Source of the DNA: Balneolaceae bacterium
GTDB taxonomy: Bacteria; Bacteroidota; Rhodothermia; Balneolales; Balneolaceae
Reading direction: 5' to 3'
Assembly: GCA_017643365.1 (NCBI GenBank)
Contig: JAEPNO010000010.1
Location: 77,743-139,452, forward strand
Length of the DNA stretch: 61,710 nucleotides
Below, in pieces: positions 6,442 to 42,464 of the stretch (positions are counted from its first letter, which is position 1; each line of letters starts with the position of its first letter). Position numbers and translations under genes: made by a program. The notes beneath the pieces were generated by a model. That model was not told the origin of the DNA. It saw nothing but the letters and a program-made list of their open reading frames with translations, and ran no database searches.

Positions 6442-7452
6442 ATGAGAAAATTAAAGTATATAATCGCATCAATGTTGGTAGTTACCACATTGATACAATG
6501 TGATGCTCTTGTTGGTGATCCTGAGCTTCCAATCCCTCTGGATGAAACTCTGGCAAATACAGGAGCATTCTTAAGAGTGCTATCTGTTGAGTCATCAGGG
6601 TTTGACGTAGCTGACCTATCAGCTGCGGCTTACACATTCACTGGCGAACTTCAGGATGTTAACAACGGTGCTGATGTAGAGCGCGTAGATTTCTACGTTG
6701 CATTTAGACCAGCTGATCGTTCTAATCCCGGAGTAGATGAACCATCTAGCCCGGTAAAAACGTACACTTCAGATCAATTCACAACTCGTGAAGCTTCTGG
6801 TCTGCCAAGTGCATCTTTTAGTGTTACCCTTAACGAGATTCTTTCTTACCTAAACTTATCAGTTAATGATTTGGCTTTAGGTGATAATTTTGAAATTCGT
6901 TGGGTTGTAGTTACCAAAGATGGAACTACTTACACTAATACTGAAGCTAGCCCTGCTGTTACAGGTGGATTCTATCAGTCTCCATACTTCGCACGTGCAG
7001 GTGTAGTACAAAGTATTCCTGAGAATATCTTTGTAGGTGAGTATACATTCACTCAGTTAAATAATGGTGCTACTTTTAACCCATTATTTGGTGCTACTTT
7101 TGTTGGCGATATGCAAGTTAATCCTTCAAATGCGTTAAATGGCCGTGTTATCAATAGCGTGGCTTATTTACCACAGTTTGGTGGTTTTAACTTCGACATG
7201 CCATTTACATTCTTCAGATTTCAGGACTTCCAAGCTTTTACTGCGGCTGACAACTGGGTTTCATTCCCAGGCGTTGTTAACCCGTCGGTAGGTTGTGGTA
7301 TTGGTCTTGTGTTTGATAATGTGCCAGATCCAGCAAAATCATCTTTTGATGTTGATGATGATAGTCAATTTACATTTACTATTATTGACAACGCAAATAG
7401 CGATTGTGGTGGAGCTCCTGCAGAAGTTCAGTTCACTGCTACTAAGAACTAA
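6442..7452 (+). CDS. Lipoprotein of unknown function, third gene of the SusCD operon
   Basis: A 336-residue protein. The frame extends back to 6337 inside susD, but the ATG at 6442 gives the lipoprotein signal MRKLKYIIASMLVVTTLIQC and is preceded by a GGATAATCGAA spacer, so it is chosen. After the signal comes a region rich in beta strands with one or two immunoglobulin-like folds (DVERVDFYVAFRPADRS, DNFEIRWVVVTKDG) and a C-terminal half with a possible disulfide pair (GCGIG and DCGG). It lies 16 bases after susD and before a strong terminator, so it belongs to the same transcript. It probably sits on the cell surface and helps bind the transported substrate, as SusE/SusF-type lipoproteins do. 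No sequence identity to those families is claimed. Confidence 0.8.
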   Translation: MRKLKYIIASMLVVTTLIQCDALVGDPELPIPLDETLANTGAFLRVLSVESSGFDVADLSAAAYTFTGELQDVNNGADVERVDFYVAFRPADRSNPGVDEPSSPVKTYTSDQFTTREASGLPSASFSVTLNEILSYLNLSVNDLALGDNFEIRWVVVTKDGTTYTNTEASPAVTGGFYQSPYFARAGVVQSIPENIFVGEYTFTQLNNGATFNPLFGATFVGDMQVNPSNALNGRVINSVAYLPQFGGFNFDMPFTFFRFQDFQAFTAADNWVSFPGVVNPSVGCGIGLVFDNVPDPAKSSFDVDDDSQFTFTIIDNANSDCGGAPAEVQFTATKN

Positions 7453-7473
7453 TACGTACTTAGTAAACATTTT

Positions 7474-7507
7474 AAAAGCCTGTACACATTGTGTACAGGC
7501 TTTTTTT
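7474..7507 (+). terminator. Rho-independent terminator of the SusCD operon
   Basis: A perfect hairpin, AAAAGCCTGTACAC paired with GTGTACAGGCTTTT around ATT, followed by a T-run. It lies 21 bases after the lipoprotein stop codon and separates the operon from the second SusD gene. Confidence 0.92.
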
Positions 7508-7609
7508 ATGCAGTTAAATTCTTAGTATAATTGAGAGGTATGAGGCAATAAATAACAATTACCTGGGTTTAAAGATATAATAGGGCATCAAATTAAATAG
7601 ACTAAAATT

Positions 7610-9256
7610 ATGGGTACCAATAATCTCAAATATATACTACTATTTTGTTTTCTTTTTAATCTGCAATGTGATCTCATAAGTACAAATGAAAATCACAATG
7701 AGCTGGGTGTAATTGAATTACCTGATCCATCCTTTCTGTTAAATTCAATTCAATTAGAAGTAAAAACACTTTTCTCAAATACTTCAAAAGTTAGTGGTGA
7801 ATTAAGTAGAATGAATTTCATGATTGGTGACACTTATTCTGAAGCAATATCACCGTCATCATTGAATAGAATTTACGGTGATGCTTATAATGACATTTTT
7901 AAAGACTTCGAGAACTTGGAGAAAATTTCAATTGAAAAGGGTTTGTACGTTCATTTAGGTATAGCGAAAATATTAAAGGCTTACACCATGATATTATTGG
8001 TAGATATATTTGGTGATATCCCATATGAAAATGCAATTGATCCAACTAATTTTAACCCTGCTTTAGATGATGATGAAATTATATATCAGAAGGCACTGGA
8101 TTTACTAAATCAGGCTGCCAATGATCTTCATAATGAGAATAATAAAGGGTTTCCGGAATTAGACTTGTTTTATGCCGGAACTCAACAAAACATAATTGAT
8201 TCGTGGATTAGAACTGCAAATACAATAAAGTTGAAAGCTCATCTAAACATGAGAAATAAGAATGAGGTTAATGCATTAATTCAAGAAGAGAAATTAATAA
8301 CTGAAAATATCTACGATTTTCAATTCCAATATAGTTCGAACTCTGACTTTCCCAATTCTCGTCACCCAATGTATGAGTTTAACTATAGGGACAATGAACC
8401 TGCGTTTACTTCGATGTCCAATAGCTATTTGTATATGATGTTATCAGACAAAGATTCAGTCGATCCTAGAATGAATTATTACTTTTTCAGAGAGGCATTA
8501 TTAGATTCCTCATTAGATGTTAATGAATGGCCGTGTAGAGATTATTCTGCACCATCTCATTTCGATGAAGATGATCCATTCTGTATCCTACCTGACGGTT
8601 ATTTTGGTGAAAATCATTTATCAGTTCCAGTTTTACACCATTTACCTATTACTACTTATGGAGTTTATCCCATAGGTGGTTCATTTGATGAAGGAGAAGG
8701 GGGTAGACTGGACAACGGAGACGGACTAAATGGAGAAGGCATAGAGCCCATACTGTTATCATCGTTCACACACTTTATGATTGCTGAAGCCGAATTATCA
8801 TTAAATAATGATATTTCAGCTGCAAGGGCTGCTTTAGAGTTAGCAATACACCATTCATTTGCCAAGGTTCAATCCTTTGGTGAGATATTAGCAGAAGGCT
8901 CTGATTTCGAAATTACAGCATCAAAACTTAGCGAGTATAAGAATGTGGTGCTTTCTCGATTCGATAATGCGAATAGTATTGATGATAAGATGAGAGTTAT
9001 TGCTAAAGAATACTACTTTGCTTTATTCGGTAATGGATATGAAGCTTACAATTTGATGAGAAGAACCGGATATCCTGACAGAATGGATAATTTGCAACCG
9101 GCTTTATCTCCTGATCCCGGTAATTGGTTTCGTTCGCTTATTTATCCACATAATATGGTACATCGAAATGAAAGCATTGATCAAAAAACTGATCAGGATG
9201 TTTTAAATGGACCATTTTGGGATCCCAATCCCGGTTCTACTAAATTTAATTTCTAG
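7610..9256 (+). CDS. Second SusD/RagB-family lipoprotein without its own SusC
   Basis: A 548-residue protein with lipoprotein signal MGTNNLKYILLFCFLFNLQC. It aligns along its whole length with the SusD at 4761: FLLNSIQLEVKTLFSN, MIGDTYSEAISPSSLNRIYG, KILKAYTMILLVDIFGDIPY, and the shared C-terminal block NLQPALSPDPGNWFRS and GPFWDPNPGSTKFNF. It is therefore a diverged duplicate. Codon use differs sharply: AGA, AAT and ATA are common here where the first copy uses CGT and AAC. It lies past a strong terminator and has its own start region. It may bind an alternative ligand and dock on the neighbouring SusC, or be a weakly expressed relic. The intact frame and conserved motifs argue for function. 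Confidence 0.88.
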   Translation: MGTNNLKYILLFCFLFNLQCDLISTNENHNELGVIELPDPSFLLNSIQLEVKTLFSNTSKVSGELSRMNFMIGDTYSEAISPSSLNRIYGDAYNDIFKDFENLEKISIEKGLYVHLGIAKILKAYTMILLVDIFGDIPYENAIDPTNFNPALDDDEIIYQKALDLLNQAANDLHNENNKGFPELDLFYAGTQQNIIDSWIRTANTIKLKAHLNMRNKNEVNALIQEEKLITENIYDFQFQYSSNSDFPNSRHPMYEFNYRDNEPAFTSMSNSYLYMMLSDKDSVDPRMNYYFFREALLDSSLDVNEWPCRDYSAPSHFDEDDPFCILPDGYFGENHLSVPVLHHLPITTYGVYPIGGSFDEGEGGRLDNGDGLNGEGIEPILLSSFTHFMIAEAELSLNNDISAARAALELAIHHSFAKVQSFGEILAEGSDFEITASKLSEYKNVVLSRFDNANSIDDKMRVIAKEYYFALFGNGYEAYNLMRRTGYPDRMDNLQPALSPDPGNWFRSLIYPHNMVHRNESIDQKTDQDVLNGPFWDPNPGSTKFNF

Positions 9257-29190: not shown

Positions 29191-30264
29191 TTGAGTACAG
29201 ACGGAATAAACATACAACAGCCCAAAAGCTTTATATCCAAAAGGTATATCGCGCTCTCCCTCTCGTTAAGTTTACTTACGATGGCAGGGGTGATTTACTA
29301 TACCTACACGCCGGGCATTTTAACTCACTTGGCGCCAAAGCGAATGCCGGGCTTGTTTATTGCTTTAGTAGTTTCATTTTTACGAGTGTGGGCTACCGCG
29401 GCTAAATTCAGAGTTCTTTCGGAGCGAACCGTTAGCTGGCTGGGTGCTTTTCGCATCACACTAACCTGGGATTTCACCTCTGCTGTTACCCCTTCAACAA
29501 TCGGTGGCGCGCCCATGGCTACATACGCCATGACTAAAGAAGGACTTAAACTCGGCGAAGCAACCGCTATCATTTTATACAGTGTGCTACTCGATCAGAT
29601 TTGGTTTGCGCTGGCCATTCCCATTTTATTGATTTCTGGAATTTACTTTGAAGTTGTTCCTCCGCAGGCCGGGATGATCGGCGAAGCTTCGATGATTATT
29701 CTCTACATATTTCTGTTAAGTTACGCCGGTTTGTTGGCTTATGGCGTGTTAGTGAATCCTGCTGCTATAAAAAAAGTAGTGAAGTTTGTATTCCGACTTC
29801 CACTTCTTAATCGATGGGAAGAAAAGATAAATGCCGAAGCGGAGAATTTGGAGAGTTACGCGCATCAGTTACGCAAAAAACCATTTTCATTCCTGTTGAA
29901 GGCGTTTTTGTATTCCACTAGTTCATGGATTTGCCGGATTGCGTTGCCAACAATTGTGATCCTGAGCTTACTCCCTGCACCAGAAATCTTATCGCTGCTA
30001 CGTAGTTTGGCGATGAATCTTACTTTCCTTGTGGTTCCAACTCCCGGTGGCAGTGGTGGGGTAGAAGGTTTATTTGTGCTATTTCAAGGACCGCTTTTAT
30101 TTATGTCGCCATCCGAAATTGCCATGGAAGTGCGTGAGTCGTTTATCGGGTTATCTCTGTTTTTATGGCGCGTGATTAGCTATTACATCGCAATTGGCGT
30201 TGGGCTGGCAGCTACTACCTTTTACATCAATAAGCAGGTGGAAGAAATTCAACAGAAGGATTGA
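29191..30264 (+). CDS. UPF0104 (LPG synthase TM/AglD-like) membrane protein
   Basis: A 357-residue inner-membrane protein with about eight hydrophobic helices. Family motifs include WDFTSAVTPSTIGGAPMATY (about 93), ATAIILYSVLLDQIWF and the late VVPTPGGSGGVEGLF. Members resemble the flippase half of lysyl-phosphatidylglycerol synthase and are thought to move lipids or lipid-linked intermediates. The only start that keeps the first helix is TTG at 29191. The stop overlaps the radA start (TGATG), so the two are coupled. Confidence 0.85.
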   Translation: MSTDGINIQQPKSFISKRYIALSLSLSLLTMAGVIYYTYTPGILTHLAPKRMPGLFIALVVSFLRVWATAAKFRVLSERTVSWLGAFRITLTWDFTSAVTPSTIGGAPMATYAMTKEGLKLGEATAIILYSVLLDQIWFALAIPILLISGIYFEVVPPQAGMIGEASMIILYIFLLSYAGLLAYGVLVNPAAIKKVVKFVFRLPLLNRWEEKINAEAENLESYAHQLRKKPFSFLLKAFLYSTSSWICRIALPTIVILSLLPAPEILSLLRSLAMNLTFLVVPTPGGSGGVEGLFVLFQGPLLFMSPSEIAMEVRESFIGLSLFLWRVISYYIAIGVGLAATTFYINKQVEEIQQKD

Positions 30265-35116: not shown

Positions 35117-36643
35117 TTATTCTCCTCGTGAAATATTGATCACGTTGTAAGTGATTTCAATTGATGAAGCCGTGCCTTGTTCGTCGGTTGCCACAATCCG
35201 AAACGTTTGTTCACCAATCTGTCGTTCGTTGGGAGTCCAGTTAAATTCACCGGTTTGCTCGTTTAGAGTAGATCCTTCGGGTAAGTCCACTCCCAGATAA
35301 CGAATTAAGCCACTCGATGGATTTTCAGGATCGATTGCGTTAAAAGTGATTTCGTAAGGATCATTAACTGCAACCGTTGATCCACGAACTGGGCTGAATC
35401 GAGGAGGAGCGTTGAACGTTCGTACTTCAACCGTGAAACTAGTGCTGTCGATCTGTCCCTTACTGTTTGATCCAATGATGGTAAACGGCGTAATTCCAAC
35501 CTGATTTACAGATGGTTGCCAGTATAAACCCTGTTTTTGAATCCGTGCATTCGCTACCGGCGATTTATAGGTGAACGAAACATCGCTGTGATCGCCCGAC
35601 TCAAGCTCGATGGCAGTTAGCAAAGGTTGGGGAAAAGTGAGTGTTTTATTACCAATGGCTTTGATTTTGAAGTTCTCTGAACCTGAAGAAGGATTTGAAG
35701 TTGAAATTTCGTTACTACCATTTTGTAACGGACTAACTTTATCGAAGATAGAAATCCAGAGTGCATCGGCACTTTTAGTGATAAAGTTTCCGGCCTGAGA
35801 TTCTGCCTGCCACAACCGAAGTCCACCATTATTTTCTGAAATCCAAAGCTGTCCATTTTGGGTGCGAACAAACAGCGTGTTTTCATATTCAGTTACGTTG
35901 GCGATTTTTGCATTTACAGTCCCAACACTTCTTCCCAATCCATTTGTGGTTACCGTATAAAGCTCACCGCTTGTGGTTGCGCCCCAAATCTTCTCATTTT
36001 GTATGAATAAGTCTTCGATTGATTCACCAAGAGTTAAAGTAGCGATAGATTCCAATCCGTCTTCGCCTAATTGAAAGGAGTGAATTTTCTCATCTCCTGT
36101 TAGTACAAACAGCTGGTTTGATAGGATCGAAGAAACGACATCTAAAACAGCAACCCGACCTATGGTTCCATTGGCAACAATATTGGCGTCGGTATCAAAA
36201 TCATCCGGCGATGTTAGTGGGAGTTCACCAAGGCCTTCATCACCTAAAGCCACAAATAATTTGTCGTTTAAACGAGCAACTCCTTTTGGCGAAACCGGGA
36301 GCTGAGTTGATGAAAATACGCCTAACACTGATGTAGGCTCAAGAACGGTTAGTCGCCTTGAATCACCATATAAGTAAGCGAACCGAATGTCTGAATCAAT
36401 CTTATTACCTCGACGTTGCATCCCCGAAGAAGTGTAGAGCCATTGCAAGGAATCCCCATAAACGCGGAAAACGGCCATTCCTTCCAGTTCGGATAGGACG
36501 TATAAATGAGCATCCGAGGCTTCCATCGCTTTAATGTTAGGAATCTCGATCAGATTTTGATAATCCTGCGACCATTGCGCCTCTGATCGAACAGAAAACG
36601 ACAACAAGAATAAAAATAGAGATATTGTAATGAGTTTTCGCAT
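35117..36643 (-). CDS. Secreted protein with WD/PQQ-like repeats and cadherin-like Ig domains
   Basis: A 508-residue protein with signal peptide MRKLITISLFLFLLSFSVRSEAQ. The first 290 residues have loose beta-propeller-like repeats (LYVLSELEGMAVFRVYGD, LFVLTGDEKIHSFQLGED). The C-terminal 200 residues hold two putative Ig/dystroglycan-type domains, the last with FNAIDPENPSSGLIRYLG, LNEQTGEFNWTPNERQIG and FRIVATDEQGTASS. It is probably periplasmic or exported. No lipobox or sorting tail is seen. It precedes mutY on the same strand, which is probably chance operon membership. Confidence 0.75.
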   Translation of the reverse strand: MRKLITISLFLFLLSFSVRSEAQWSQDYQNLIEIPNIKAMEASDAHLYVLSELEGMAVFRVYGDSLQWLYTSSGMQRRGNKIDSDIRFAYLYGDSRRLTVLEPTSVLGVFSSTQLPVSPKGVARLNDKLFVALGDEGLGELPLTSPDDFDTDANIVANGTIGRVAVLDVVSSILSNQLFVLTGDEKIHSFQLGEDGLESIATLTLGESIEDLFIQNEKIWGATTSGELYTVTTNGLGRSVGTVNAKIANVTEYENTLFVRTQNGQLWISENNGGLRLWQAESQAGNFITKSADALWISIFDKVSPLQNGSNEISTSNPSSGSENFKIKAIGNKTLTFPQPLLTAIELESGDHSDVSFTYKSPVANARIQKQGLYWQPSVNQVGITPFTIIGSNSKGQIDSTSFTVEVRTFNAPPRFSPVRGSTVAVNDPYEITFNAIDPENPSSGLIRYLGVDLPEGSTLNEQTGEFNWTPNERQIGEQTFRIVATDEQGTASSIEITYNVINISRGE

Positions 36644-36660
36644 ATGCTGATTCTATATGT

Positions 36661-37638
36661 CTACAACCAATTATGATTTTTGTACCAACGGATAGTGCGA
36701 GAAATACCTTCTTCTAAGCTGGTGCCGGGCATATACCCAAGTTCTTTCTCGGCTTTTGCTGATGAACACACCCATTCGTGCGTCATTTCTCTGGCTTTTT
36801 CTTCGTTTAAAACGGGATACTTTCCAAGTATTCCGGCGCCCTTTTCAACGGCAGTAGCGATTTTTTTAATCCACCTTGGTTTTAATTTCAAAGGGATGGG
36901 TTTCCAGCCTGTAACAACTGAAGTTATTTCGCGAATTTGATTCCAGGAATACGCTTCTTTTGGCCCGCCCATAAAATAGGTGTGTGATCCTGTTTTTGTA
37001 AATACCGCCGCTTTCATTATTCCTTCAACTAAATCCTTCACATATACCATCGATAATTTCGGATGGTTCCCATCACCCACCATCGGGCATATTCCTAGCT
37101 TAAAGGTTTTGAAAAAGGTATAAATGTCTGCTTCGCGTGGACCATAAACTGCCGGTGGACGAATAATTTTAATACTTTCTTTTTTTGATGCGGCACTTAA
37201 AATAATTTCTTCCATTTCCTTTTTCGATTCACCATACATACTCACTGGACGAAGTTGCGCAGATTCAGTAAGTGGGGCTCCGTTACTTGGACCTGTTGCA
37301 GCCAACGAAGAAAGCATCACTATATTGGTGATTCCTTTTTTTTGAGCTATTCGGAGCAGGTTTTCGGTGGCATCAACATTAGCACGTTTAAACTCCGACC
37401 ACTTTGGAGCACGAACAACTCCTGCAATGTGAAAAATCACGTCTACACCTTCTAGGGCGGAACTTAATACTTGTAAATCGGTTAGATCGCCTTTAACACG
37501 AGTAAAGGCTTTTCCGGTTAACCACTTGTCAGAGCTTCTAACCAAACATAATACTTCAGAATATTGATCGGATTCGATCAGCGCATCAACCAGATGACTG
37601 CCAACAAAACCGGTACCGCCGGTAACAAAGGCTCTCAT
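36661..37638 (-). CDS. Extended-SDR NAD-dependent epimerase/dehydratase, candidate ceramide-reductase type
   Basis: A 325-residue enzyme. The nucleotide motif TGGTGFVGSHL is at the N-terminus. The serine-tyrosine-lysine triad is visible in MLSSLAATGP and YGESKKEME (about 140). The substrate domain includes IIRPPAVYGPREADIYTFF. Its place next to glycosyltransferases, an SPT-type enzyme and a GNAT gene suggests a role in sphingoid or sulfonolipid formation, like the CerR reductase of bacterial ceramide synthesis. A sugar-nucleotide epimerase is the main alternative. It is divergent from the GT4 gene, with 99 bases between. Confidence 0.8.
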   Translation of the reverse strand: MRAFVTGGTGFVGSHLVDALIESDQYSEVLCLVRSSDKWLTGKAFTRVKGDLTDLQVLSSALEGVDVIFHIAGVVRAPKWSEFKRANVDATENLLRIAQKKGITNIVMLSSLAATGPSNGAPLTESAQLRPVSMYGESKKEMEEIILSAASKKESIKIIRPPAVYGPREADIYTFFKTFKLGICPMVGDGNHPKLSMVYVKDLVEGIMKAAVFTKTGSHTYFMGGPKEAYSWNQIREITSVVTGWKPIPLKLKPRWIKKIATAVEKGAGILGKYPVLNEEKAREMTHEWVCSSAKAEKELGYMPGTSLEEGISRTIRWYKNHNWL

Positions 37639-37737
37639 AAATGTGTATATTTATCGGATTTTTGAAAATTGGTTAGCGCAAAGTTGAATAGTCGCACAGC
37701 CCCGAAGATACAAATCTACGAACTGCTTTTAAACTGA

Positions 37738-38895
37738 ATGAACGAACTGAGAGTAGCATTATTTACCGGCAATTATAACCACATCAGAGATGGTGTGTCG
37801 CTTACACTAAATCGATTGGTTTCCTATTTAGAGAGTCAAAACATTCCGGTGTTAGTTTTTGGGCCCAGCATTAAAAACCCACCCATTGATCATTGCGGTG
37901 AACTTGTGGTTACGCCATCTATTCCGATGTTAGTTCCAGGCAGAACCGAGTATCGAATTGCCACTCACTTTCCGGGCTGGGCAAAAAAACGTCTTGAGGA
38001 ATTCAACCCAACTTTGATTCATATTGCAACGCCCGATGGGTTGGGTAGCGGCGCAATGAAATGGGGAAAGAAACATGATGTGCCGGTTGTGGCAAGTTAT
38101 CACACCCATTTTTTAAGTTATGCGGGCTATTATGCTGCGTTTTTAATGCCGATTTTTCTCCCGGCCAAATGGCATATGAAATCGTTTTATAAAAAAGCGA
38201 TAGAAACTTATGTGCCATCACAATCGATGATAGATGAGCTGGAAGAAATCGGGCTGCAAAGTAACATGAAAATCTGGGCTCGCGGAATCGATCTCGAGAG
38301 ATTCAATCCTAAAAAAAGGGATATGGAATGGCGACGTTCGGTCGGGTTAAAAGATGATGAAATAGTAGTGAGCTTTGTCTCGCGGTTGGTTTGGGAGAAG
38401 GAGTTGCGGACGTACATTAAAGCAGTAAAAAATGTGCAAGCTATTCATCCAAACGTTCGAGCTTTAATTGTGGGTGACGGTCCGGCTTTGGATGAGACGA
38501 AAGAATTGTTACCGGATGCACATTATACCGGTTTTGCAAAGGGCGAAGATTTGGCAAGAGCATATGCAAGCAGCGATATTTTCATGTTTCCATCGCACAC
38601 CGAAACTTTCGGAAATGTAACACTGGAAGCTATGGCAAGTGGACTCCCATGCGTGGTGGCGGATGCCATTGGGAGCAAATCGCTGGTTGAGGACGGAGAA
38701 AACGGATTTTGGGCAAAACCTAAAAACGAAGATGATTTCACCGAAAAGTTGAAAAAGATTGTTGAAAACGACGAGTTGAGAACGGCGATGGGGAAAAAAT
38801 CGCGAGAATTTGCGATGAATTATCAATGGGAATCCATCAACGGTGGCTTGGTTGAGAATTATAAATCAGTGATTAAAAACTACTCCGGCTCGTGA
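37738..38895 (+). CDS. GT4-family glycosyltransferase (lipid glycosylation type)
   Basis: A 385-residue GT-B enzyme. The N-terminal acceptor domain starts LRVALFTGNYNHIRDGVSLT and includes LIHIATPDGLGSGAM and VASYHTHFLSYAGYY. The C-terminal donor domain has VSFVSRLVWEKELRTYIKA, HYTGFAKGEDLARAYASSD and the EX7E motif MFPSHTETFGNVTLEAMASG. It resembles SqdX- and MgtA-type transferases that put a sugar on diacylglycerol or related lipids. The stop overlaps the next gene start (GTGATG). Confidence 0.88.
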   Translation: MNELRVALFTGNYNHIRDGVSLTLNRLVSYLESQNIPVLVFGPSIKNPPIDHCGELVVTPSIPMLVPGRTEYRIATHFPGWAKKRLEEFNPTLIHIATPDGLGSGAMKWGKKHDVPVVASYHTHFLSYAGYYAAFLMPIFLPAKWHMKSFYKKAIETYVPSQSMIDELEEIGLQSNMKIWARGIDLERFNPKKRDMEWRRSVGLKDDEIVVSFVSRLVWEKELRTYIKAVKNVQAIHPNVRALIVGDGPALDETKELLPDAHYTGFAKGEDLARAYASSDIFMFPSHTETFGNVTLEAMASGLPCVVADAIGSKSLVEDGENGFWAKPKNEDDFTEKLKKIVENDELRTAMGKKSREFAMNYQWESINGGLVENYKSVIKNYSGS

Positions 38896-40028
38896 TGAAG
38901 ATTTTGTACATATCGCATTTACATCCCCCAAAAAATGCACCGCTCAAAAGCATCGGCGGTATGCAGCGTGTGAGCATGCAATTAGTAGATGAGTTAAAGA
39001 AGAAACCGGGTGTTCAAATTAAAACCATCATACAGCATGCTCCCTGGAAGGGAATTGAAGCCCGAACAGCTGTATTTTTGTTTAAACTCATCCGCAAGCT
39101 CCCCAAAATTGTAGACGATTATCAGCCGGATGTGATCCTGTTTTCCTCGATGGTAACGGCAACGTTGGCAAAGTTCACACGATCAAAAATTTCTGTGCCT
39201 ATGGTTACAATCAATCATGGTCAGGACGTGAAAATGCCCATTGGGATCTACCAGAACTTTGTTCCTAAAGTATTTGAGGCGTTGGATGGAGTAATTTCAG
39301 TATCACGCGCAACTCGCGAAGAATGTATTAAACGAGGAATGCATCCAGAAAAAGGAATCGCGCTACCTAATGGTTTCGATATGGCGCATATCGAAGAAAC
39401 ACCGGAAAAAGAGTCTGCTCGTAAAGATTTGGAAAAAGCTTTTGGCTTTTCCTTAGAAGGGAAAAAGCTTTTACTAACGGTTGGCCGGCAGGTGAAGCGA
39501 AAAGGGCATGAATGGTTTATTACCGATGTTTTTTCGAAAATTAAGTCGGATGTAATTTATCTGGCGATAGGTGAAGGCCCTGAACATGAACGATTATTGC
39601 AAGTAAGGGACGGTCTGACTTTTAAAGATGCACTACATTTTGTGGGAAAACAACCGGATGAATTACTTCGAAAATCGTATGCAGCGGCAGATGTATTTGT
39701 AATGCCTAACATCCCGGTAGAAGGAGATATGGAAGGCTTTGGAATTGTGATGCTTGAAGCAAATTTGGCTTCAACTCCTGCTGTGGCAGCCGATTTAGAA
39801 GGTATAAAAGATGTAATTAGCGATGGTGAAAATGGCTTCAAAGTAGAAGTGCGTGATGCCGACACTTTTGCAGCTAAGATTGATGAGGTTTTAACAACTG
39901 ATTATTCTACCTTAAGCGAAAGCAGCAGGAACTATGTAGAGCAAAATTTTGCTTGGGAACGAGTCGCTGACAGATATATTTCTTATCTTGGCGAGGTTAT
40001 AAAAGATCACAGCACTCATAATGGCTAG
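38895..40028 (+). CDS. GT4-family glycosyltransferase
   Basis: A 377-residue GT-B protein. The ATG at 38895 shares a base with the upstream stop; a GTG one codon before is less likely. Key segments are GGMQRVSMQLVDEL, TINHGQDVKM, LTVGRQVKRKGHEWFI and the EX7E-type PVEGDMEGFGIVMLEANLAS. It lies between the first GT4 and the SPT-type gene, so it may add a second sugar to the same lipid. The acceptor is unproven. Confidence 0.87.
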   Translation: MKILYISHLHPPKNAPLKSIGGMQRVSMQLVDELKKKPGVQIKTIIQHAPWKGIEARTAVFLFKLIRKLPKIVDDYQPDVILFSSMVTATLAKFTRSKISVPMVTINHGQDVKMPIGIYQNFVPKVFEALDGVISVSRATREECIKRGMHPEKGIALPNGFDMAHIEETPEKESARKDLEKAFGFSLEGKKLLLTVGRQVKRKGHEWFITDVFSKIKSDVIYLAIGEGPEHERLLQVRDGLTFKDALHFVGKQPDELLRKSYAAADVFVMPNIPVEGDMEGFGIVMLEANLASTPAVAADLEGIKDVISDGENGFKVEVRDADTFAAKIDEVLTTDYSTLSESSRNYVEQNFAWERVADRYISYLGEVIKDHSTHNG

Positions 40029-40100
40029 TTGGTAAATTTGAATGAATTTCAATACTAGCTATATTCAACGTTATTCGATTATTTGGACAGGACGGATCGC

Positions 40101-41333
40101 ATGAGCGAAACAAAAAATTTGGCCACTCAAGACATATTTCATAAAGCACACAGTTTCACTCGGGCTGATGAAGTAAAAGCAATGGGTTTATACCCATATT
40201 TTAAACCACTCGAGGCCACCGATGGTACGATAGTAGAGATTGAAGGCCGAAAAGTTATCATGGCCGGTTCCAATAACTATCTTGGTTTAACAAATGATCA
40301 GCGTACCATAAAAGCGGCTCAAGATGCCCTTACTAAATATGGCACTGGCTGTACCGGTTCGCGCTATTTAAATGGAACATTGGATATCCATTTGGAACTG
40401 GAAGAAAAGCTTGCTGATTTTATGGGCAAGGAAGGCTGCGTTCTCTTTAGCACCGGCTACCAAACCAATGAAGGAGCCATTCAAACCATTGCGGGAAGAA
40501 ATGATCTGATTTTTTCCGATCGCGATAATCATGCATGTATTGTAGTTGGCACACAGGTTTCTAATGCCAAGACTATTCGCTACAAGCATAACGATATGGA
40601 TCAACTGCGTAAGTTTTTAGAGCAAGCAGATCCGAATGCAGGTAAAATTATTGTAACCGATGGCGTTTTTTCAATGTCAGGTACATTAGCAAAAGTGCCA
40701 GAGTTGGTAGCTTTAGCAAAAGAATTTAACGCACGTCTTTATTTGGATGATGCACACGCCGTAGGTGTAGTTGGAAAAGGTGGGCGAGGATCTGCATCTG
40801 TTTTTGATTTAACCGACGAAGTTGACCTGATCAGTGGAACTTTCTCCAAATCGTTTGCCTCTTTAGGTGGCTTTCTTGTTGGTGATAGAACGGTAATCGA
40901 GTATATCCGCCATCACTCACCGGCACATATTTTTAGTGCATCCATGCCTCCGGCAAATGTTGCTACCGTTCTTACTGCACTTGAAATTTTGAAAGAAGAA
41001 ACCTGGCGTTTAGATCGATTAGAAGAAATTTCGGTGTACATGCGTACCGAACTTGAGAAATTGGGTTTTAACGTTTGGTCTAGCCAGTCTCCAATCATAC
41101 CGGTTGTAATTGGCGATATGATGGATTGCTTTAAATTCTGGAAAGATCTTTTTGAAGAGGGCGTTTACGCAAACGCAGTAATTCCACCGGCGGTACCACA
41201 AGGTCAGTCGCTTTTGAGAACTAGTTATATGGCTAGCCATACCGATTCGCACTTAAATCGTATTCTCGAAGCTTTCAGAAAAGTGGGATTAAAGCACGGA
41301 ATTATCGATAATAACGGACACTCAGCCAGCTAA
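40101..41333 (+). CDS. Serine palmitoyltransferase-type alpha-oxoamine synthase
   Basis: A 410-residue PLP enzyme. The ATG at 40101 is used; the frame is open from a TTG at 40083. Signature parts are SNNYLGLTNDQR, GTGCTGSRYLNGTLDIHLEL, the stacking histidine in DRDNHACIV, LDDAHAVGVVGKGGRG, and the PLP lysine in GTFSKSFASLGGF (about 250). The family also contains BioF, KBL and ALA synthase, but the NGTLDIHLELEEKLA pattern and the GNAT neighbour point to serine palmitoyltransferase, or to cysteate acyltransferase making sulfonolipids. It condenses an amino acid with a fatty acyl thioester at the start of sphingoid synthesis. Confidence 0.87.
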   Translation: MSETKNLATQDIFHKAHSFTRADEVKAMGLYPYFKPLEATDGTIVEIEGRKVIMAGSNNYLGLTNDQRTIKAAQDALTKYGTGCTGSRYLNGTLDIHLELEEKLADFMGKEGCVLFSTGYQTNEGAIQTIAGRNDLIFSDRDNHACIVVGTQVSNAKTIRYKHNDMDQLRKFLEQADPNAGKIIVTDGVFSMSGTLAKVPELVALAKEFNARLYLDDAHAVGVVGKGGRGSASVFDLTDEVDLISGTFSKSFASLGGFLVGDRTVIEYIRHHSPAHIFSASMPPANVATVLTALEILKEETWRLDRLEEISVYMRTELEKLGFNVWSSQSPIIPVVIGDMMDCFKFWKDLFEEGVYANAVIPPAVPQGQSLLRTSYMASHTDSHLNRILEAFRKVGLKHGIIDNNGHSAS

Positions 41334-41342
41334 TAATAGGAT

Positions 41343-42464
41343 ATGGATACTACGGGGATCACTATCGTCACGACCGATGACGAGAAAAAGAAATTTCTGG
41401 AATTCCCCTATTCGCATTATCAAAACGATCCTCACTTTGTTCCTCCTTTGCGGATGGATCAGAAAAAACTTATCGACACCAAGAAAAATCCGTTTTATAA
41501 AAATGCAGACATCGCATTATTCATAGCTGAACATAACGGTGAAATTGCCGGCAGGATATCAGCGACGGTAGACCATCGTTTTAACAATTACCACAATACT
41601 AAGACCGGCCATTTTGGTTTTTTCGAGTGTATCGACCATCAACCTACGGCAAACTTACTATTTAGGGTAGCTGAAGATTGGCTTCGCGATCAGGGAATGA
41701 CCAAAGTTCTAGGTCCGGCTAGTCCCGGGATGATGGATATGATAGGGCTATTGAGCGATGGATACGATCGTGACCCTTTTGTAATGATGCCATATACCAA
41801 GCCTTATTATTTAAAATTGGTTGAAGCTTGCGGCTACGAAGTAGAGATGGAGTTATTGGCATTTATGATTTCTCAAGATGATGTTGCTAAGGATCGAATG
41901 CAACGTGCTAAAGAGATCGTTCATAAACGAAATCCGGGCTTGAGTTTTCGTCAGGTTAACATGAAAAGGATTAAAGATGAGGTCGAAATAGTTCGCGAAA
42001 TCTATAATCAAGCATGGAAAGATAATTGGGGATTTCTACCATTAACCAAAGAAGAACTCCAAGCAACAGCAGATGATTTTAAGCTGATTTTGGATGCAGA
42101 TGTTGCACATATTGCCGAAATAGACGGCAAACCGGTTGGATTTTCCATATCCATTCCAAATCTTAATACGCTTTTCAAAACCATGAATGGGAATCTTTTC
42201 CCGTTTGGCATATTTAAATTACTTTTTGGAAGAAAGAAAATAAATGAACTTCGCACTGCTTTAATGGGAGTGTTACCCGAATATCAAGGAAGAGGAATTG
42301 AAGCGTTGTTAAATCAACGAACAATTGAACGAGGGGAAACAAAAGGCTACGACCGATCAGAAATAAGCTGGGTGCTTAACAATAATGTTGATATGGTACG
42401 AGTAGCCGAACGCCTAGGTGCCAAAGTTGATAAGAAGTATCATATGTACACAAAGGCTCTTTAG
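41343..42464 (+). CDS. Large GNAT-fold acyltransferase, candidate bacterial ceramide synthase
   Basis: A 373-residue protein of the large GNAT-like family. The N-terminus FPYSHYQNDPHFVPPLRMDQ and IAGRISATVDHRFNNYH, and the C-terminal acetyl-CoA-like fold (MGVLPEYQGRGIEALLNQRT) are typical. Bacterial ceramide synthases that N-acylate the sphingoid base belong to this type and occur near spt genes. It starts nine bases after the SPT-type gene, so cotranscription is almost certain. Substrate assignment is from context. Confidence 0.82.
   Translation: MDTTGITIVTTDDEKKKFLEFPYSHYQNDPHFVPPLRMDQKKLIDTKKNPFYKNADIALFIAEHNGEIAGRISATVDHRFNNYHNTKTGHFGFFECIDHQPTANLLFRVAEDWLRDQGMTKVLGPASPGMMDMIGLLSDGYDRDPFVMMPYTKPYYLKLVEACGYEVEMELLAFMISQDDVAKDRMQRAKEIVHKRNPGLSFRQVNMKRIKDEVEIVREIYNQAWKDNWGFLPLTKEELQATADDFKLILDADVAHIAEIDGKPVGFSISIPNLNTLFKTMNGNLFPFGIFKLLFGRKKINELRTALMGVLPEYQGRGIEALLNQRTIERGETKGYDRSEISWVLNNNVDMVRVAERLGAKVDKKYHMYTKAL

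Follow-up and report, generated by a model that had tools for sequence, protein, structure and literature searches.

In Caulobacter crescentus and Escherichia coli BL21, ceramide biosynthesis involves three kinds of enzymes, which are a serine palmitoyltransferase (SPT, gene spt), an N-acyltransferase of the GNAT family (aca/bCerS/YghO) and a reductase (epi/CerR). Dihydroceramide formation in Caulobacter requires five genes, among them CC_1154, whose equivalent in BL21 is listed as yghO ("aca") (PMC9386255). CerR of Caulobacter is periplasmic, and it is debated whether reduction precedes or follows N-acylation in this bacterium (PMC11087976). Moreover, two sequential enzymes of glycosyltransferase family 4 (GT4) put two sugars on the ceramide of Caulobacter (PMC6445935), and α-galactosylceramide of Bacteroides fragilis is made by one GT4, BF9343_3149 (PMC9692976). 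Here, a stretch of 61,710 nucleotides (hereafter the window) from a Balneolaceae bacterium (contig JAEPNO010000010.1; host genome of 51 contigs and 3.77 Mb, 99.8% complete) was analyzed. At positions 36661–42464, it carries five contiguous genes for a short-chain dehydrogenase/reductase (SDR), two GT4 enzymes (GT4a and GT4b), an SPT-type enzyme and a GNAT. We consider this region to be a dihydroceramide biosynthesis locus with probable two-sugar glycosylation by its GT4 pair, at a rough probability of 0.8.

The locus is a conserved ceramide operon of a known kind in a new arrangement. All five genes, which had been proposed in an earlier sequence-only reading of the window, were intact open reading frames (ORFs), and their Pfam domains agreed with the proposed identities. 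GT4a, GT4b, SPT and GNAT follow one another on the plus strand, and the SDR gene is divergent from them on the minus strand (Table 1). By coordinates, GT4a and GT4b overlap by 4 bp, GT4b and SPT are 54 bp apart (72 bp if SPT starts at the ATG at 40101) and the gap between SPT and GNAT is 9 bp. The entire block was found in 21 of 24 Balneolales-type loci (L011–L034), and in the remaining three (L012, L020 and L022) contig ends cut it upstream. Given that the gene order is kept in 21 of these 24 loci, the arrangement is not by chance. The closest named relatives of the window GNAT were from Balneolaceae metagenome genomes, of which the top one was 91% identical.

Similar to Caulobacter and E. 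coli BL21, the window encodes the same three enzyme kinds. Different from them, the window SPT is of the Bacteroidota kind and has no acpR/aasR genes beside it. The GT4 genes are in one unit with spt, whereas Sgt1 and Sgt2 of Caulobacter (ccna_00793 and ccna_00792) are, by locus number, away from spt (ccna_01220). BF9343_3149 of B. fragilis, which also acts on ceramide, is tied to the window GT4s by family only.

From the gene identities, active-site state, clades, co-occurrence and conserved gene order observed in the sequences, we infer which reactions take place, in which order, and which acceptor receives the sugars. From L-serine and a long-chain acyl thioester, the SPT would form 3-ketosphinganine by condensation. 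The tandem GNAT would N-acylate the base and the divergent extended SDR would reduce the 3-keto group, and either of these two steps could be first. The two GT4 enzymes, whose genes share a unit with SPT, probably attach two sugars one after the other, yielding a glycosylceramide. Capnine would not be a product of the window SPT, and a separate cysteate-type enzyme is encoded elsewhere in the genome.

Serine palmitoyltransferase and a separate, probable sulfur branch

The window SPT scored 410 bits against the SPT of Sphingobacterium multivorum (PDB 8guh and 3a2b), which is the closest solved SPT, and 216 bits against the cysteate fatty acyltransferase (CFAT) 28eh. In a tree of 90 α-oxoamine synthases, with bioF and kbl of E. 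coli and BL21 spt among its references, the window protein was placed among the SPTs, separate from 40 CFATs, from Kbl of E. coli and from the BioF proteins. A grouping with BioF or KBL, which the sequence-only reading had named as the outcome that would speak against its proposal, was ruled out by this tree, and the BioF of the genome is a different gene. The pyridoxal phosphate (PLP) residues (His, Asp, His and Lys) were intact in all 90 aligned sequences. The window protein shares its enzyme family and PLP residues with SulA/CapB/CFAT (7u7h and 28eh). However, it lacks the equivalent of SulA Lys281, the sole active-site difference between SulA and SPT, in which this position is alanine (PMC9304779). 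In the corresponding column, Ala was found in 47/47 SPT-class sequences and Lys in 40/40 CFATs, and the window protein has Ala286. The S. multivorum SPT also has Ala at this position in an alignment. By clade and active site, the enzyme is a serine palmitoyltransferase and a candidate for the condensation of serine.

It is very improbable that the SPT-type enzyme is instead a CFAT and that the locus makes capnine-type sulfonolipids. CFAT was present in all 19 genomes of the host's family in the sample, and the host genome itself has a CFAT and a cysteate-synthase-like gene, but these are separate genes on other contigs. Moreover, the use of cysteate by the window SPT was ruled out by Ala286, by its position outside the CFAT clade and by the 410 versus 216 bits. 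The host genome contains three α-oxoamine synthases, which are the window SPT, a BioF and L003 (G000:C32). L003 scored 464 bits to CFAT 28eh, 424 to SulA 7u7h and 226 to SPT, and it carries the marker Lys. A search for a cysteate synthase gene yielded L005, an enzyme of the PALP family whose best model was the cysteate synthase CapA. As its 463 bits are below the CapA cut-off of 600 and cystathionine β-synthase scored 436, L005 is only a likely cysteate synthase. Inspection by eye of the 13.9-kb contig of L003 revealed no CapA-like gene beside it, and L005 is on another contig. The sequence-only reading had suggested a capnine-making version of the enzyme for marine relatives. This does not hold for the window SPT, but it fits the separate CFAT gene. 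The locus is therefore not a sulfonolipid locus, yet the organism probably makes sulfonolipids as well.

The N-acyltransferase and the reductase

Over its full length (376 alignment columns), the window GNAT shared 36% identity with BL21 YghO. When BL21 YghO was searched against the host genome, the window GNAT was first with 250 bits, followed by a protein with 154 bits. Its homology to the bCerS/aca/YghO proteins was thus established via BL21 YghO, and its tie to CC_1154 rests on the published listing. It was also 37% identical to a Sphingomonas homolog, which is encoded on a plasmid near genes for an acyl carrier protein, a NAD(P)H-binding protein and an SPT-like enzyme of the aminotransferase class. 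The predicted structure was a tandem GNAT (mean pLDDT 89.8). Its best solved match was also a tandem GNAT (Z 24.7, root-mean-square deviation 3.4 Å, 305 residues), and N-myristoyltransferases matched at a Z of about 16; such likeness of fold does not show function. The best hit of a PDB sequence search with the window GNAT had an E value of 0.059, and no model for the GNAT clades A and B described below was found in NCBIfam. The window GNAT, a clade-A member, is a candidate ceramide synthase, i.e., a putative sphingoid-base N-acyltransferase.

Presence of SPT, CFAT and GNAT in 148 Bacteroidota genomes was decided by score cut-offs, and for the GNAT clades these were chosen once gaps in the scores had been seen. 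SPT and clade-A GNAT were both present in 107 genomes and both absent from 36. SPT alone was found in two (G024 and G033) and clade-A GNAT alone in three (G067, G079 and G097). The clade-A gene of G097 is truncated, and the SPT gene of G129 runs into a contig end. The two genes were adjacent in 59 of the 107 genomes having both, including 23/23 genomes of Balneolales and 11/14 other genomes of the class Rhodothermia, with the three genomes of family f4 as the exception. Several more distantly related families also showed this adjacency, but it was absent from all 28 genomes of family f16 having both. An earlier study cited in PMC11334938 reported that sphingolipid-producing Bacteroidota do not have the three ceramide genes close together. 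As SPT and GNAT are adjacent in 59 of the 107 genomes, gene order is usable for finding producers.

Among the proteins of the host genome, the window SDR was the best match to BL21 epi with 106 bits, and the next scored 34 bits. Similar to CerR/epi, it is an extended SDR with GxxGxxG and YxxxK motifs. Of 14 SPT loci fetched from outside the class (L095–L108), 13 had such an SDR gene by SPT, and it was missing in L101. Its strand was opposite to that of SPT in ten of them and the same in L106–L108. According to the ORF calls, 12 of the 14 loci had both SDR and GNAT by SPT; the ORF filter had concealed the GNAT of L097, which a score search placed there. Thus, the ceramide trio of SPT, GNAT ceramide synthase and epimerase-like reductase that the sequence-only reading had recognized is well supported by the clade of SPT, the YghO homology and the best match to epi.

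Similar trios were also observed on plasmids. Plasmid 1 of the actinobacterium Rubrobacter radiotolerans carries SPT, GNAT and SDR genes (L048, 8668–12035), with CRISPR-associated genes annotated as type I-D a few kb away, and an Aureispira plasmid carries SDR, SPT and GNAT genes. Neither trio has intervening GT4 genes.

Glycosyltransferases and their acceptor

The EX7E motif was searched with a pattern that additionally requires FG within it and was found in 22/22 GT4a and 23/23 GT4b sequences of Balneolales. At the cut-off used, GT4a matches were present in all 37 genomes of the class Rhodothermia and in 2 of the 111 others. Glycosylation of ceramide by GT4a and GT4b is plausible from their position in the unit. 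A somewhat less probable but serious alternative is that the ceramide trio is real and that the two GT4 enzymes are merely its neighbors, acting on a glycosyl-diacylglycerol or a glycosylated phospholipid. The best NCBIfam models for GT4a were indeed a phosphatidylglycerol and a diacylglycerol glycosyltransferase (GlcN-PG synthase, 154 bits, and MGlcDAG synthase, 124 bits), although both scores were far below cut-off. In the sister families, moreover, GT4a and GT4b were together but away from SPT in 6 of 11 fetched loci, and a gene of about 840 codons was beside the GT4 gene(s) in 8 of the 11; in L137, the one tested, it encodes an MMPL protein. However, GT4a, GT4b, SPT and GNAT are tightly spaced, their arrangement was retained in every untruncated Balneolales locus examined, and the two sequential GT4 enzymes of Caulobacter provide a precedent for ceramide as the acceptor (PMC6445935). 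In addition, a different glycosyltransferase (PF13528; L111:7748–8878, genome G008) is encoded directly upstream of SPT-GNAT in a sister-family locus. The reading as a ceramide locus with its own glycosyltransferases is preferred here. Of the complete route to a glycosylated sphingoid lipid that the sequence-only reading had suggested, the ceramide part stands; its glycosylation is still inferred, as the GT4 pair adjoins SPT only in Balneolales and the acceptor cannot be read from sequence.

Several results weigh against the preferred reading. The best of 13 NCBIfam models for the window SPT was the SerpalmtaseCFB equivalog NF047600, whose curated cut-off of 640 was missed with 501.3 bits; therefore, the enzyme is named SPT by clade and active site and not as that equivalog. 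The window SDR is just 29% identical to BL21 epi, and no such SDR was found within about 5–7 kb on each side of four SPT-GNAT loci of the sister families (L109, L110, L111 and L113). The co-occurrence counts of SPT and clade-A GNAT ignore shared ancestry. Finally, in the other families of the class GT4a and GT4b are apart from SPT, so the link of the pair to ceramide may reflect one translocation.

Other genes were noted near the locus. A protein of 508 amino acid residues with a putative C-terminal Ig domain and a weak match to PorZ is encoded at 35117–36643 on the minus strand, and in those Balneolales loci that reach far enough its gene is located between mutY and SDR. About 7 kb upstream, 29191–30264 on the plus strand encodes a flippase-like protein of the LPG_synthase_TM family, possibly a lipid flippase. 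A protein of the same family is encoded near a GT4a-like gene in L143.

Table 1. Features of the ceramide locus, in window positions.
Feature	Position	Strand	Evidence
Extended SDR, candidate ceramide/ketosphinganine reductase (CerR/epi type)	36661..37638	-	Pfam Epimerase/3Beta_HSD; GxxGxxG at residue 7, YxxxK at residue 135
Divergent intergenic region of 99 bp, presumed promoter region for both units	37639..37737	.	Coordinates
GT4a, candidate first ceramide glycosyltransferase	37738..38895	+	Pfam Glycos_transf_1 and Glyco_transf_4; EX7E at residue 289
GT4b, candidate second ceramide glycosyltransferase	38892..40028	+	Pfam Glycos_transf_1 and Glyco_transf_4; EX7E at residue 281
Serine palmitoyltransferase, Bacteroidota type	40083..41333	+	Pfam Aminotran_1_2; His150, Asp222, His225, Lys256; Ala286
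Tandem GNAT of the bCerS/aca/YghO type, clade A, candidate ceramide synthase (N-acyltransferase)	41343..42464	+	Pfam Acetyltransf_1

GNAT clades and a possible role in the N-acylation of capnine

For sulfonolipids, a cysteate synthase, CFAT, a ketocapnine reductase and N-acylation have been described in a 2023 review (PMC10191378) and a 2024 paper (PMC11211663), whose accessible portions name no gene for N-acylation. The literature searched, which was mostly open-access and in part available only as portions of text, likewise yielded no gene for capnine N-acylation (PMC12927429, PMC10191378 and PMC9304779 included). The host genome contains a second GNAT of the family (G000:C51, L053:8720–9856, minus strand). 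The GNAT trees consisted of an SPT-linked clade A, a clade B with this host paralog and a clade C. YghO was nearest to clade A in one tree, and its placement was not firm in another; the second tree omitted 13 near-identical Balneolales rows. The odds appear about even that clade A pairs with SPT for ceramide synthesis and that clade B, or clade C in other families, would be the capnine N-acyltransferase catalyzing the last step of sulfonolipid synthesis.

Gene neighborhoods and co-occurrence are consistent with this division. Among the 24 genomes with cfat and a clade-B GNAT, eight carry the two genes side by side (L055–L062, in genomes G134, G057, G103, G130, G118, G068, G142 and G025). All eight belong to family f19, and the two genes are convergent on opposite strands, with a gap of about 100–120 bp in five loci and a small ORF between them in three. 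In four of the eight, capA was on the other side of cfat, and in the one capA-cfat locus tested CapA scored 650 bits, over the curated cut-off of 600. The GNAT counts over the sample were made from the matches listed, and clade C was not counted across all genomes. Among the 32 genomes with CFAT only, none had clade A, 18 had clade B, 11 had only another GNAT of the family and three (G041, G053 and G064) had none. For six of these 11 (G007, G076, G080, G111, G126 and G146), the GNAT was included in the tree and fell in clade C; the other five are G045, G072, G114, G122 and G138. Of the 22 genomes that encode SPT as well as CFAT, 15 had at least two GNATs, compared with 15 of the 87 that encode SPT only (Fisher p 8e-6).

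The assignment of clade B to capnine also meets contrary observations. Of the 22 genomes encoding both condensing enzymes, seven (G026, G038, G050, G061, G065, G096 and G139) have a single GNAT of the family, which is of clade A, and clade B and CFAT of the host genome are on different contigs. In G033 (L074, about 5.3–8.7 kb), moreover, an SDR, a clade-B GNAT and an SPT-like gene are in a row, where clade B seems to have replaced the clade A found at this place in L106–L108. The seven genomes with clade A alone would fit a GNAT of the window type that is shared and N-acylates both the sphingoid base and capnine. Such sharing is unlikely, since clade A was absent from all 32 CFAT-only genomes, 29 of which have another GNAT of the family, and since multiple GNATs were enriched in the two-enzyme genomes over the SPT-only ones. 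A strict rule that clade B means CFAT was unsupported as well, as 11 genomes have clade B without CFAT (G014, G019, G031, G035, G039, G047, G051, G062, G070, G082 and G124) and 30 have CFAT without clade B.

Two further arrangements were observed around these GNATs. In L053, the clade-B gene is followed by FabA/FabZ-like (8254–8733) and FabF-like (6971–8311) genes and a GT2 gene, an arrangement that recurs in G123 and is rearranged in G073. In a Bacteroidales metagenome-assembled genome (L040:2182–4323), a clade-C GNAT gene is divergent from that of a classical SDR (NF004825, over cut-off), a possible reductase partner.

A taxonomy table (PMC5167729) lists an "unidentified glycolipid" in Balneola species, and the window locus is a candidate source of it. 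None of the papers retrieved on Balneola and sphingolipids appeared relevant by title or abstract opening. If the readings given here are true, Balneolaceae would run ceramide and sulfonolipid pathways in parallel. Moreover, the GNAT tree supplies a testable candidate for the N-acylation step of sulfonolipid synthesis, and the most useful outcome of this study is a testable split of the N-acyltransferase family.

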